64,000 nt of DNA from Natronospira proteinivora. Lineage in GTDB: Bacteria > Pseudomonadota > Gammaproteobacteria > Natronospirales > Natronospiraceae. The stretch lies in contig NZ_JALJYF010000002.1 of assembly GCF_024170465.1 (NCBI RefSeq), positions 992,001 through 1,056,000 of the forward strand, written 5' to 3'. The first letter of the stretch is position 1, and each line of letters opens with the position of its first letter. Below are positions 22,560 to 26,551 of the stretch, piece after piece. A program made the position numbers and the translations under genes. A model generated the notes under the pieces. That model ran no database searches, was not told the origin of the DNA, and saw nothing but the letters and a program-made list of their open reading frames with translations.

Positions 22560-23099
22560 TTACAAGCCGGTATTGTGTTTTTGAAGCTTTCTTTGCAGTG
22601 TACGCCGGTGCATGCCCAAGGCGCGGGCAGCCGCGGAGATGTTGCCGTTCTTGTCCCGCAGGACCCTTTGTATATGCTCCCATTCCAGTTGCCGGACGGA
22701 CATGGCCTTGTCCACCTCGTCAGGCTCCGGGGTGATGGAAGTGCCCTCCAGGTGGAGCAGGATGGTTTCGGTATCGGCCGGTTTGGCCAGGTACTGGTCA
22801 GCGCCCAGCTTGACTGCTTCCACGGCCGTGGCAATAGAGGCATAGCCCGTCAGCATCAGTATACGGGTATGGGGGCAACGCTTACGCAGTCGGGGGATGA
22901 GCTGCAGGCCATCTTCATATTCGGCCAGTCTGAGGTCGACGATCATGCCCCAGGGGGATAGCGATGCCAGGGCATGCAGCGCCGCTTGGCCATCGGTTGC
23001 CGTATGAGCGGTAAAGCCCCGTTGCGTCAAGGCGCGGGCCAGAATACGACGAAATCGATCGTCATCATCAATGATGAGCAGCGTCCTGCTTTCAGTCAT
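22560..23099 (-). CDS. regA: Response regulator RegA/PrrA/ActR family
   Basis: This is a 179-residue two-domain regulator. The receiver domain has the acidic pocket IIDDDDRF, phosphoacceptor Asp55 in MIVDLRL, the switch Thr in LMLTGYASIATAVEAVKLGA and the Lys in QYLAKPAD. A proline-containing linker leads to a Fis-type helix-turn-helix, NISAAARALGMHRRTLQRKL, almost the signature of RegA. The start at 23099 overlaps the end of regB by eight bases. In the family, RegB phosphorylates RegA in response to the redox state of the quinone pool, and RegA controls respiration, photosynthesis, carbon or nitrogen fixation genes. A RegA-like palindrome sits upstream of regB, so autoregulation is likely. 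Confidence 0.9.
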   Translation of the reverse strand: MTESRTLLIIDDDDRFRRILARALTQRGFTAHTATDGQAALHALASLSPWGMIVDLRLAEYEDGLQLIPRLRKRCPHTRILMLTGYASIATAVEAVKLGADQYLAKPADTETILLHLEGTSITPEPDEVDKAMSVRQLEWEHIQRVLRDKNGNISAAARALGMHRRTLQRKLQKHNTGL

Positions 23100-24354
23100 G
23101 GCGTGTTGCCTCCTGCGTGGGCAATTCCACCCGAGCAATGGTGCCGCCATTGGCGCGATCGCGGAGTGTCAGCCGTCCCCCGTGGCGCCGGATCACCGAT
23201 TCGGCCAGAAACAAGCCCAGTCCCCTTGGCCGTTCCCGGTTGATAGGCTCCTCCCTCTTACCGGCCTGGGATCGGGTGCTGTTCTGGATCCCCTGGCCCC
23301 GGTCACAGACCCGCAGAACGGCCTGGTCCCGGGACCAGGCAAACTGGACTTCCACCGGCGCCTCCCCCCACTCAAAGGCGTTATGAACCAGGCTGGCCAT
23401 GGCTTGCAGCAGTCCGGCATCCATCAGGATCCGTGGTGCTGGGGTCGGGCCCCGCTGGCGGATGTTGGGTGGTGTACCTCCCAGGTCCCGCCAATACTGT
23501 ATCAAGCGAGGAAGCAATTGATCCGCCGTCAGGCTTTCTCCCCGGTCAGCCCGCGGGTTGCCGGTGGCTTCCAGGCTGCGTTCAATGACCCGCTGACAGC
23601 GATTGATCTCGTGGGAGAGATCTTCAATGCGTTCCTGCTCCAGGGATGTTTTTGCATCCCGTGCCAGTTCATCCGACAAAATCTTGAGGCTGGCCAGGGG
23701 TGTGGACAACTCATGCGCGGTGCCGGCAGCCATGGCGCCCAGGGCCAGCAGGCGTTTGTCTTCCAGGGCCTGTTTCTGCTGCTGGGCAAGGGCAAGTTCT
23801 CGCGCACGCAGGGTCTGGGAAAGCCGACCCCCGATACCGGCGATCAGCACGGCCGCTGCCACAAAACCCACCCACATGCCGGTCAGATGGATATTGAATC
23901 GATGATCCATTCCGTGCTCGAGACTGCCTGGCAGCGGCAAGTAAATGGCATACAGCAGGGAATATATGCCAATGGCCAGAATCGCCATTAGGATCGTGCC
24001 GGGCAGCGGGAGTCGAATGGTGGCCAATGCTACGGGGATGAGCAGCAGAAAACCCAATGGATTCTCATGGCCACCGCTCAAGGCCAGAACCAGGCCGACG
24101 CCCAGCAGGTCCAGGCCCAGCTGCACCGTCAGGCCAACGCTTCCCCGATGTCTGCGTCCCATCAGCAAGGTGATGCTGATCAGCGCGGGCCAAAGCAGAC
24201 AGATGGCGAGCGCCAGGCTCGTGATGGGGATATCCAGCCACAAGCGCGCCGCCAATAGGGACAGAAAGAGGAGCCCAAAACTGCCTGCTCGAGCCAGCAG
24301 CAGGCCCCGTATTTCCTGTGCCACTGCTTGTGGCCTTTCGCTGCGATCGCTCAT
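23092..24354 (-). CDS. regB: Redox sensor histidine kinase RegB/PrrB/ActS family
   Basis: This is a 420-residue membrane kinase. The first 190 residues form about six helices. Between helices lies SGGHENPLGFLLL, close to the GGxxNPF heptapeptide that binds quinone in RegB (Leu replaces Phe). The H-box is GTAHELSTPLASLKIL with His214. The redox-active Cys of RegB is retained as Cys253 in EINRCQRVIERSL. The ATPase part shows VHNAFEWG (N-box), VCDRGQGI and GLGLFLAES (G-boxes). The kinase should sense aerobic/anaerobic redox state and phosphorylate RegA, encoded next in the operon with an 8-base overlap. The start has GAGATCC upstream. Confidence 0.9.
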   Translation of the reverse strand: MSDRSERPQAVAQEIRGLLLARAGSFGLLFLSLLAARLWLDIPITSLALAICLLWPALISITLLMGRRHRGSVGLTVQLGLDLLGVGLVLALSGGHENPLGFLLLIPVALATIRLPLPGTILMAILAIGIYSLLYAIYLPLPGSLEHGMDHRFNIHLTGMWVGFVAAAVLIAGIGGRLSQTLRARELALAQQQKQALEDKRLLALGAMAAGTAHELSTPLASLKILSDELARDAKTSLEQERIEDLSHEINRCQRVIERSLEATGNPRADRGESLTADQLLPRLIQYWRDLGGTPPNIRQRGPTPAPRILMDAGLLQAMASLVHNAFEWGEAPVEVQFAWSRDQAVLRVCDRGQGIQNSTRSQAGKREEPINRERPRGLGLFLAESVIRRHGGRLTLRDRANGGTIARVELPTQEATRHD

Positions 24355-24390
24355 AGGATCTCATTATACGATGCCCCGCAAACAGTGGGG

Positions 24391-24407
24391 TGCGACATCA
24401 TGTCGCA
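24391..24407. promoter_or_regulatory. RegA/PrrA-like binding palindrome between regB and the outer-membrane protein gene
   Basis: TGCGACATCATGTCGCA is a perfect 17-base palindrome around a central C. Its core GCGAC-N5-GTCGC fits the inverted GCGNC/GNCGC pattern described for RegA, PrrA and RegR sites. It lies 37 bases upstream of regB and 69 bases upstream of the divergent gene, directly over the place expected for that gene's -35 box (-10-like TATAGAAT at 24429-24436). Confidence 0.65.
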
Positions 24408-24475
24408 TCCCCAATCCGCGATGATCTTTATAGAATCCCCTCCCGCGCCAATCAAGGACTTACAGAGGTGGATTA

Positions 24476-25474
24476 ATGCGTCAAAGCCATGTAGCAAACG
24501 TGATTCTGGGTATTGCTCTTCTCATTTTGTCCGGCACGGTCAGTGCCCATTGGACCAGTGATCGACCCGATGGGCATGCGCCCATGGGTGTGATGGCCGA
24601 CCATGTCCACAGCCGGGGAGAGTGGATGGTCGCCTTGCAACATAGCCGTATGAGTATGTCCGGCTTGCGGGATGGCAGTGATTGGGTCTCGCCCATGGCC
24701 GTCCAGGAGGATTACCACGCCGCGCCCCTGGGCATGGATATGGACATGTCCATGTTGATGCTCATGTATGCCCCCAGTGATCGGTTGACGCTCATGGGCA
24801 TGTTGCACCACATGGACAGCAGCATGGAAAGCGCCATGCATGGCATGGGCAGTTCCATGGAAACCAGTGGTCTGGGCGACTCATTCCTGGGTGGTATCTA
24901 CAAGGCCCTGGACGCCGACGGCCAACAGCTGCTGATTAATTTCGGCGTCAGTCTGCCCACCGGCAGTATCGACGAAGATGTACCCATGATGGGCATGGAC
25001 ATGCGCGCCGGCTATCCTATGCAACTCGGCTCGGGTACCTATGATCTCATGCCGGGTATGACCTGGCTGGGTCAGGGTGATCATTGGTCCTGGGGGGCAC
25101 AGGCCATGGCCACCTTGCGTTTGGGCAGCAATGATGAGAGCTATACGTTGGGGGATGAGTTCAACTTGACCGCTTGGGCGGCGCGCCGCCTGACATCATG
25201 GCTAAGTCTTTCCGCTCGCCTGGAACAGACCCAATTCGGCAATGTGGATGGTGCCGATCCCGCCATGAATCCGGACATGAACCCGGCCGCCGATCCCCGC
25301 AATCAAGGCGGTGATCGAACCCAGCTGGGTGTCGGTGCCAATATCCAGTTCTCCGGTGCTCTCAGTGGCCATCGCCTGGGCCTGGAGTACATCGAGCCCA
25401 TTCGGGAGCGATTGGATGGTCCCCAGATGTCCGTGGATAGCACCGTGGTCCTCGCCTGGGAGCTGGCCTGGTGA
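24476..25474 (+). CDS. Met/His-rich outer-membrane beta-barrel (phenol_MetA_deg-like, metal-linked)
   Basis: This is a 332-residue protein with a signal peptide (cleavage after VSA, about residue 24). The mature N-terminus is rich in Met and His: HAPMGVMADHVH, GMDMDMSMLMLMYAPSDRLT, MLHHMDSSMESAMHGMGSSM. The rest has amphipathic strands, LINFGVSLPTGSIDE, PMQLGSGTYDLMPGMTWLG and a C-terminal aromatic strand ending in AW. These blocks are typical of the 'transporter' branch of the MetA-pathway outer-membrane family often found next to copper-resistance genes. Metal, probably copper, handling is therefore likely, but no copper gene neighbours it. It faces regB divergently across a RegA-like site, so RegA may control it. 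GAGGTGG precedes the ATG. Confidence 0.8.
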   Translation: MRQSHVANVILGIALLILSGTVSAHWTSDRPDGHAPMGVMADHVHSRGEWMVALQHSRMSMSGLRDGSDWVSPMAVQEDYHAAPLGMDMDMSMLMLMYAPSDRLTLMGMLHHMDSSMESAMHGMGSSMETSGLGDSFLGGIYKALDADGQQLLINFGVSLPTGSIDEDVPMMGMDMRAGYPMQLGSGTYDLMPGMTWLGQGDHWSWGAQAMATLRLGSNDESYTLGDEFNLTAWAARRLTSWLSLSARLEQTQFGNVDGADPAMNPDMNPAADPRNQGGDRTQLGVGANIQFSGALSGHRLGLEYIEPIRERLDGPQMSVDSTVVLAWELAW

Positions 25475-25585
25475 CGGGCTGATTGCGGGGAAAGGAGTAA
25501 GCTTGACCCGTTCCCCGCACAAGCGGACGATGGATCGCCTACCGTTCGGGTATTGCCGATCACTCGCTTCCGAGGCCTTGCTCAC

Positions 25586-26551
25586 ATGCGCGTCTTTAAT
25601 AATCCGGTAGGGTCCGGCTCGCTCTGGTTCGATAATCTCACCACGGCCGAGGGCACGCCCGTGGCCTATGATCCCCAGGCCCGGGCGTTCCTCCCCATGC
25701 CGCCCTTTTGTGCGAACCGGGAGCGGATTGGCTGCAACTGGATTGCGCCCAAGGAAGGGGCCTTTTGCCGGTCCTGTGCCATGACGGCGCTGGCGCCGGA
25801 TCCTTCCATCCCGGGTGCCATACCCAACTGGGCCCAGACCGAGGCGGCCAAACGCTGGGTGCTGGACAACCTGGGCCGCTGGCACTGGTTCCGGCCGGAA
25901 GATCCGGGGGCACCGCCGGTGTTCCACCTGCTCGCCGAAGGCCCTACGCAGGTGCTCATGGGCCATGTGGAAGGGGTGGTGACCATCAGTGTGGCCGAGG
26001 CCGACCCGGTGGTACGGGTGACCCGCCGCCAAGCCCTGGATGAGCCTTACCGCACCATGATTGGTCATATGCGCCACGAGATTGCCCATATGCTCTGGTG
26101 GCGTCTGAGCCTACGGGAGGATTTCCTGGAGGCCTTCCGGGCCATGTTCGGAGATGAGCGGGCGGATTATCAGGCCGCCCTTCAGCGTCATTACCATGAT
26201 GGCCCGCCCGCCGATTGGCGGGATCGCTTTCTGACGTCCTACGCCTCCTGCCATCCCCATGAAGACTGGGCGGAGACAGCCGCCCATCTATTGCATCTGA
26301 CCGACATCACCGACAGCTGCGTGGCGTCCGGCTTGTCCTCTCCCGACCAGCCCACCCCGGGCTGGGACCCCTACGCGGAACCGGATACCGAGCGATTGCT
26401 TCATATCGCGGCTTCCCTGACGGTGCGGGTCAATCACGTCAACCGCTCCATGGGATTATCGGATCTTTATCCCTTCGTGCTGTCCGGCCCGGCCCGACGA
26501 AAACTTGCCTTCGTCCATGACTGGTTGCGGCGGGGGGCCCAGGGGCTCTGA
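25586..26551 (+). CDS. Putative zinc-binding metallopeptidase (COG4307 type)
   Basis: This is a 321-residue soluble protein. The catalytic motif is HEIAH at 164-168 in MRHEIAHMLWWRL. The downstream DERADYQ, HPHEDWAETAAHLLHL region supplies the third metal ligand and the family's 'HP.EDWAE.waHYLHi.D' signature. TASLTVRVNHVNRSMGLSDLYPFVLS closes the domain. Relatives begin with a zinc ribbon of CxxC pairs; here the first pair is replaced by NNPVGSGSLWFDNL, while later Cys (CANRERIGCNW, CRSC) remain, so the ribbon is probably incomplete. The start at 25586 fits the family N-terminus (relatives begin MK.F.C). Substrates are unknown. It is preceded by a short gap after the metal-linked porin; co-transcription is possible. 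Confidence 0.8.
   Translation: MRVFNNPVGSGSLWFDNLTTAEGTPVAYDPQARAFLPMPPFCANRERIGCNWIAPKEGAFCRSCAMTALAPDPSIPGAIPNWAQTEAAKRWVLDNLGRWHWFRPEDPGAPPVFHLLAEGPTQVLMGHVEGVVTISVAEADPVVRVTRRQALDEPYRTMIGHMRHEIAHMLWWRLSLREDFLEAFRAMFGDERADYQAALQRHYHDGPPADWRDRFLTSYASCHPHEDWAETAAHLLHLTDITDSCVASGLSSPDQPTPGWDPYAEPDTERLLHIAASLTVRVNHVNRSMGLSDLYPFVLSGPARRKLAFVHDWLRRGAQGL

Follow-up and report, generated by a model that had tools for sequence, protein, structure and literature searches.

A conserved RegA-type box between regB and the divergent gene of a putative copper-uptake outer-membrane barrel

A perfect 17-bp palindrome between the regB gene and a divergently transcribed gene for an outer-membrane protein (OMP) is conserved at orthologous loci, keeps a fixed distance to the predicted OMP promoter and occurs together with the response regulator RegA, for which it is very probably a docking site. 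The best explanation, held to be probable as a whole, is that RegA acting from this box activates the OMP gene and can control regBA, and that the OMP takes up copper. The window, which is the whole stretch of 64,000 nucleotides that was analysed, contains the following features:

22560 to 23099, minus strand: gene of the regA-type response regulator; its first 8 bases overlap with the 3' end of regB
23092 to 24354, minus strand: gene of the regB-type sensor kinase, with the quinone motif GGHENPL and a conserved Cys253
24363 to 24368, minus strand: predicted -10 TATAAT facing regB, perfect, at offset 39 counted from the opposite box end
24387 to 24411, no strand: extended inverted repeat GGGGTGCGACAT-C-ATGTCGCATCCC, 12-base arms with 11 of 12 pairs
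24391 to 24407, no strand: RegA-type box TGCGACAT-C-ATGTCGCA, 17 bp, conserved at 20 of 24 divergent loci
24431 to 24436, plus strand: predicted -10 TAGAAT of the OMP promoter, at offset 40 from the box start
24476 to 25474, plus strand: Met/His-rich outer-membrane beta-barrel of the PF13557 type, 332 amino acids, likely involved in copper uptake

The palindrome and its conservation

The sequence at 24391–24407, TGCGACATCATGTCGCA, is composed of two perfect 8-base arms around a single central C and is located within the 121 bp that separate the regB start (24354, minus strand) from the OMP start (24476, plus strand). An earlier note on this DNA had described it as a perfect 17-base palindrome matching the RegA/PrrA/RegR repeat, and this description is confirmed. 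In sequence and conservation the box agrees with the GCGNC-N5-GNCGC inverted repeat of RegA sites, and it differs at one position from the RegR consensus of B. japonicum, GNGRCRTTNNGNCGC (quoted in PMC5506826). The match to this loose pattern alone carries little weight, since neither the window (5 occurrences vs 3.7 expected) nor the genome (118 vs 146 for the reversed control pattern) shows an enrichment of it. Perfect 8+1+8 repeats are expected about 0.0016 times per gap of 121-bp size and about once per 64 kb. A second, imperfect inverted repeat of 13 bases (85%), at 24321–24333 / 24376–24388, spans the regB start.

The decisive evidence for a real box is its conservation at orthologous loci. 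The exact core GYGRCANNNTGYCRC is present upstream of the OMP gene in 20 of the 24 loci in which OMP and regBA are divergent, a set that counts one genome twice (L117, L151), against 0.005 expected from dinucleotide shuffles. The core is usually the sole copy within up to 17 kb, and the consensus across the divergent loci is GGTGCGACA-N3-TGTCRCATTC. The earlier note had staked its proposal on the presence of the pattern at orthologous loci, where the box is indeed found. An environmental species in culture, Zhongshania antarctica DSM 25701 (L184), shares this layout. It is therefore extremely improbable that the palindrome is a chance match, which would agree with the lack of enrichment of the loose pattern but is contradicted by conservation and by the fixed promoter spacing described below. 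A transcription terminator or an RNA hairpin is equally improbable, as the box lies upstream of the predicted -10; scans for a terminator and for the sigma-70 consensus found no site.

Two boxes arranged head to tail with a 15-bp period occur in the regB–OMP gaps of L116, L119, L122, L123, L125–L128 and L130, apparently one box per divergent promoter. Another variant is found in a MAG of the Opitutia (Verrucomicrobiota; L143), in which regBA is divergent from the OMP gene and accompanied by the near-box TGCGTCAATTTGCCACA, hinting at transfer between phyla.

Linkage of the box to RegA

Of 369 genomes sampled from the class, 120 have RegA (E up to 1e-35) and 56 have the OMP. They co-occur in 42 genomes, often divergently adjacent as in the window (Fisher 1.3e-12; this and the following P-values are only indicative, as the loci are related by descent and the genomes are related and in many cases incomplete). 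None of the other 18 genomes of the order contains RegA. In a comparison of 50 OMP-holding genomes, RegA was found in 19 of the 20 with a box and in 3 of the 30 without (Fisher 9e-10), a box being called at 13 or more of 14 positions, a threshold picked after inspection of seven RegA genomes without the exact core. When only the exact core is counted, RegA is present in 15 of 16 genomes with it and in 7 of 34 without it (Fisher 1e-6), and the best score in genomes with neither box nor RegA is 11 of 14. The nearest OMP relative, with 70% identity, belongs to a Thiotrichales MAG that has neither RegA nor the box. For regBA loci gathered irrespective of the OMP, the box is located upstream of regB in 44 of 80. 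Both regBA (22560 on) and the OMP gene (to 25474) are absent from the close relatives checked, of the same genus and order, and may have arrived or been kept together; only a Peptidase_Mx gene is common to the closest relative of the genus within 14 kb.

The best model matches of the two proteins are RegB and RegA, yet both score below the NCBI curated cut-offs. RegA reaches 164 bits against the equivalog NF033791 (cut-off 250), under which four other gammaproteobacterial RegA proteins also fall (175–189 bits), and RegB reaches 178 bits against NF033792 (ActS/PrrB/RegB; cut-off 350), for which two RegB homologues score 245 and 180 bits. The quinone motif GGxxNPF, the H-box His and the redox-active Cys that characterize RegB are present as GGHENPL (L for F) and the conserved His214 and Cys253. 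The latter residue is 98% conserved in 58 homologues and is taken here to correspond to Cys265 of R. capsulatus. RegA contains the phospho-Asp and the conserved Fis-type recognition helix, MHRRTLQRKL, of which HRRTLQRKL is nearly invariant in 53 RegA homologues; in the alignment, this helix is common to the solved response regulator 3rqi.

The pair thus resembles the known RegB/RegA systems (PrrBA, ActSR, RegSR) in the kinase with its quinone motif and redox Cys, in the Fis-type regulator with the same recognition helix and in the GCGNC-N5-GNCGC-type site. It differs from them in the scores below the equivalog cut-offs and in having no senC beside it. Unlike the global RegB/RegA system, it has the OMP as its conserved target and a compact 17-bp palindrome in a constant position as its site. 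Copper coupling of R. capsulatus RegA depends on Cys156 (PMC9147068), which appears to be absent from the RegA of the window, where the only Cys sits in the receiver domain.

The low NCBI score of RegA would be compatible with a different owner of the box, namely another regulator that shares the RegA consensus and co-occurs with regBA. Such a regulator is very unlikely, as the presence of the box tracks RegA over the 50 genomes, boxes stand upstream of regB whatever the divergent gene, and the recognition helix of RegA is conserved. RegA itself is thus the probable ligand of the box.

Promoter geometry

The distance between the box and the OMP promoter is nearly constant. Across 40 aligned loci, a TANNNT hexamer is found at offset 39–41 from the box in 37, compared with 2.6 in shuffles (maximum 8), and the -35 matches of these OMP promoters are mostly poor. 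In the window, the -10 begins 40 bp after the box start and there is no consensus -35, so the position over the -35 region of the OMP gene that had been proposed earlier holds. Given the predicted -10, the centre of the box is near -44, the usual site for an activator that contacts RNA polymerase (class II promoters). The fixed -10 spacing combined with a poor -35 suggests an activator-type layout.

A RegA protein bound here could instead repress one or both promoters, because the box reaches up to or into the -35 region of each and a protein sitting there can block the polymerase. This is considered unlikely, since the constant -10 spacing and the poor -35 in most loci form the pattern expected of activation. 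Activation of the OMP gene is therefore the preferred reading.

On the opposite strand, the TATAAT of regB stands at nearly the same distance from the box, so the same box and the same dimer could also control regBA, and a single box can serve both divergent promoters in the window. A hexamer facing regB at offset 38–40 is present in about 9 of 26 loci. These hexamers and the boxes upstream of regB at 44 of 80 loci make autoregulation of regBA by RegA likely. The autoregulation anticipated in the earlier note thus gains support from the mirror-image TATAAT and from the occurrence of boxes ahead of regB also where the OMP is missing. Between the predicted regB -10 and the annotated ATG lie 8 bases (24354–24368); regB would therefore be almost leaderless, unless it starts at an in-frame GTG about 30 bases further in.

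The outer-membrane protein and copper

The OMP is rich in methionine (31 of 332 residues) and contains no Cys. M40, H43 and H45, together with nine further Met, are invariant in 18 relatives, and the N-terminal motif is GVMxxHxH. Its AlphaFold model is a confident barrel (pLDDT 87, pTM 0.82), whose closest folds in Foldseek are FapF (5o65–5o68) and the COG4313 channel 4rl8 (E 1e-15 to 1e-11). The predicted barrel shares its fold with these channels but differs from them in GVMxxHxH (M40, H43, H45) and the many invariant Met, and the identity is 14–16%. A search of viral contigs for the OMP gave none.

At box-less loci, the OMP gene is often preceded by a small ORF on the same strand with a hydrophobic start, a CxxC and a proline-rich end. 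Such a leader, recognized by CxxC and a RAPP-like C-terminus, occurs in 32 of 64 box-less loci, compared with 1 of 38 box loci and 12 of 467 control genes (2.6%), the motif rule also firing on spurious GC-rich reading frames; the sole box locus with a leader call (L140) looks spurious. When the leader sequences were compared with Pfam DUF2946, 2 of 9 scored above the cut-off and 1 just under it, and the rest fit by motif only. Some members of the DUF2946 family are leaders that sense copper. CruR of B. pertussis detects the metal by CxxC and stalls on RAPP, and the presence of copper thereby switches off an operon with a TonB receptor (PMC9426467). A relative of CruR is CutF of Rhodobacter (PMC9973294). 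Similar leaders precede homologues of the window OMP in other bacteria. CruR acts on the nascent transcript through the nascent peptide, whereas the window has no CruR-type leader before the OMP gene and carries a transcription-factor box at the promoter. Box and copper-sensing leader are near-exclusive in their distribution among OMP loci. Small CruR-like ORFs that precede the OMP gene in Bacteroidota, Verrucomicrobiota and Planctomycetota are mostly not recognized by Pfam DUF2946 (L142, L144, L147, L150, L157, L162, L165, L176, L185, L190–L192, L203, L212, L216; those of L162 and L190 are a loose fit only), and this type of leader may be more diverse than its present description.

Copper genes also tend to be found beside boxes at other gammaproteobacterial regBA loci. 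Divergent from regB are OprC-type copper receptors (L268, L322; best NCBIfam TIGR01778, below cut-off), MbnP copper-binding proteins (L261, L276), the copper(I)-binding CorA (L323), TonB proteins (L272, L290, L295), a TonB receptor (L266) and remote OMP kin (L251, L265, L271, L328), and a CopD gene is near one regB (L263). Cytochrome genes are among the box-facing neighbours as well (L269, L274, L317). Roughly half of the box-facing genes have no copper assignment.

Given the leaders before box-less homologues and the copper genes facing boxes elsewhere, the most likely role of this outer-membrane barrel is copper uptake. The metal-handling role proposed in the earlier note is thereby sharpened to copper; the box-less homologues with CruR/DUF2946-type leaders and the boxes facing copper genes at other loci are new beyond it. 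Alternatively, RegA could bind the box for classical redox control only, the OMP being a general, iron-related or other channel to which copper is incidental. The direct activation of the iron operon feo by RegA of the related methanotroph Methylomonas DH-1 (PMC13274454) is in favor of such a role, as are the likeness of the barrel to general COG4313/FapF channels, the cytochromes among the box-facing neighbours and two loci with the OMP in a TonB-receptor operon of unspecified substrate. Incidental copper is nevertheless rather unlikely in view of the copper-sensing leaders before OMP homologues, the invariant Met and His of the protein and the genes for a copper receptor, MbnP and CorA that adjoin boxes at other loci.

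Wider regulon

The earlier note had also suggested a genome-wide search with GCGNC-N5-GNCGC, which was run and, at the counts given above, does not support a wider regulon. The exact core has 2 matches in the own genome, compared with 3 for the control, the second match being inside cydD, and near-matches number 8 against 12. A genome-wide RegA regulon acting through this box is not supported, both counts being at control level; the search of the own genome revealed no other convincing box. A wider regulon, if there is one, would use weaker sites. In the literature covered, from which subscription journals were mostly absent, no paper connected RegA with this OMP family or with genes for copper uptake.

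Proposed circuit

In the copper-uptake reading, RegB would read the quinone pool and the thiol state and phosphorylate RegA. A RegA dimer would then occupy the box at about -44 of the OMP promoter, replacing the weak -35 and most likely activating transcription, and the same dimer would control regBA via the regB -10 on the other strand. The OMP would carry copper across the outer membrane, probably supplying respiratory copper enzymes. Such a circuit would make copper acquisition respond to the quinone/thiol redox signal that RegB reads.

A broader proposal, put forward tentatively and with somewhat less than even confidence, is that RegBA of Gammaproteobacteria functions as a local copper-acquisition switch. 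It would read copper supply, either directly or by way of copper-dependent respiration, and through a standard 17-bp box at about -44 would activate adjacent copper-uptake genes of the outer membrane and the periplasm, as a transcriptional counterpart of the CruR leader. RegA sites have hitherto been hard to define, and a study of such sites in Acidithiobacillus reported no shared motif (PMC5506826). Being sharply defined, conserved and fixed in its promoter geometry, the present box can be used to predict RegA targets in Gammaproteobacteria. The results point to copper uptake as a recurrent RegA target, which would link redox sensing with copper supply. Two unrelated control devices, the RegA box and the copper-sensing leader peptide, are associated with the same poorly studied OMP family. 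The box, which recurs in dozens of related loci, suggests that copper uptake through the outer membrane is tied to the respiratory state in these bacteria.

Further observations on OMP loci

In L126 (959–6827) and L130 (969–6725), a box faces a five-gene run on one strand that encodes a TonB receptor, a BNR-repeat protein, a small protein (of thiol-disulfide type in L126), a TonB protein and the Met-rich OMP. On Ruegeria plasmids (L053, L054), the gene of a 42%-identical OMP and a cytochrome c maturation cluster (ccmF, dsbE, ccmI) diverge from each other. Methylocystis relatives of the OMP (L055:5025–5966, hits H15–H17) are annotated as 'alpha-amylase', which is probably a misannotation. In the window, the OMP gene is followed at 25568–26551 by a putative zinc metallopeptidase (PF15887), of which a second, 40%-identical copy is located elsewhere in the genome.
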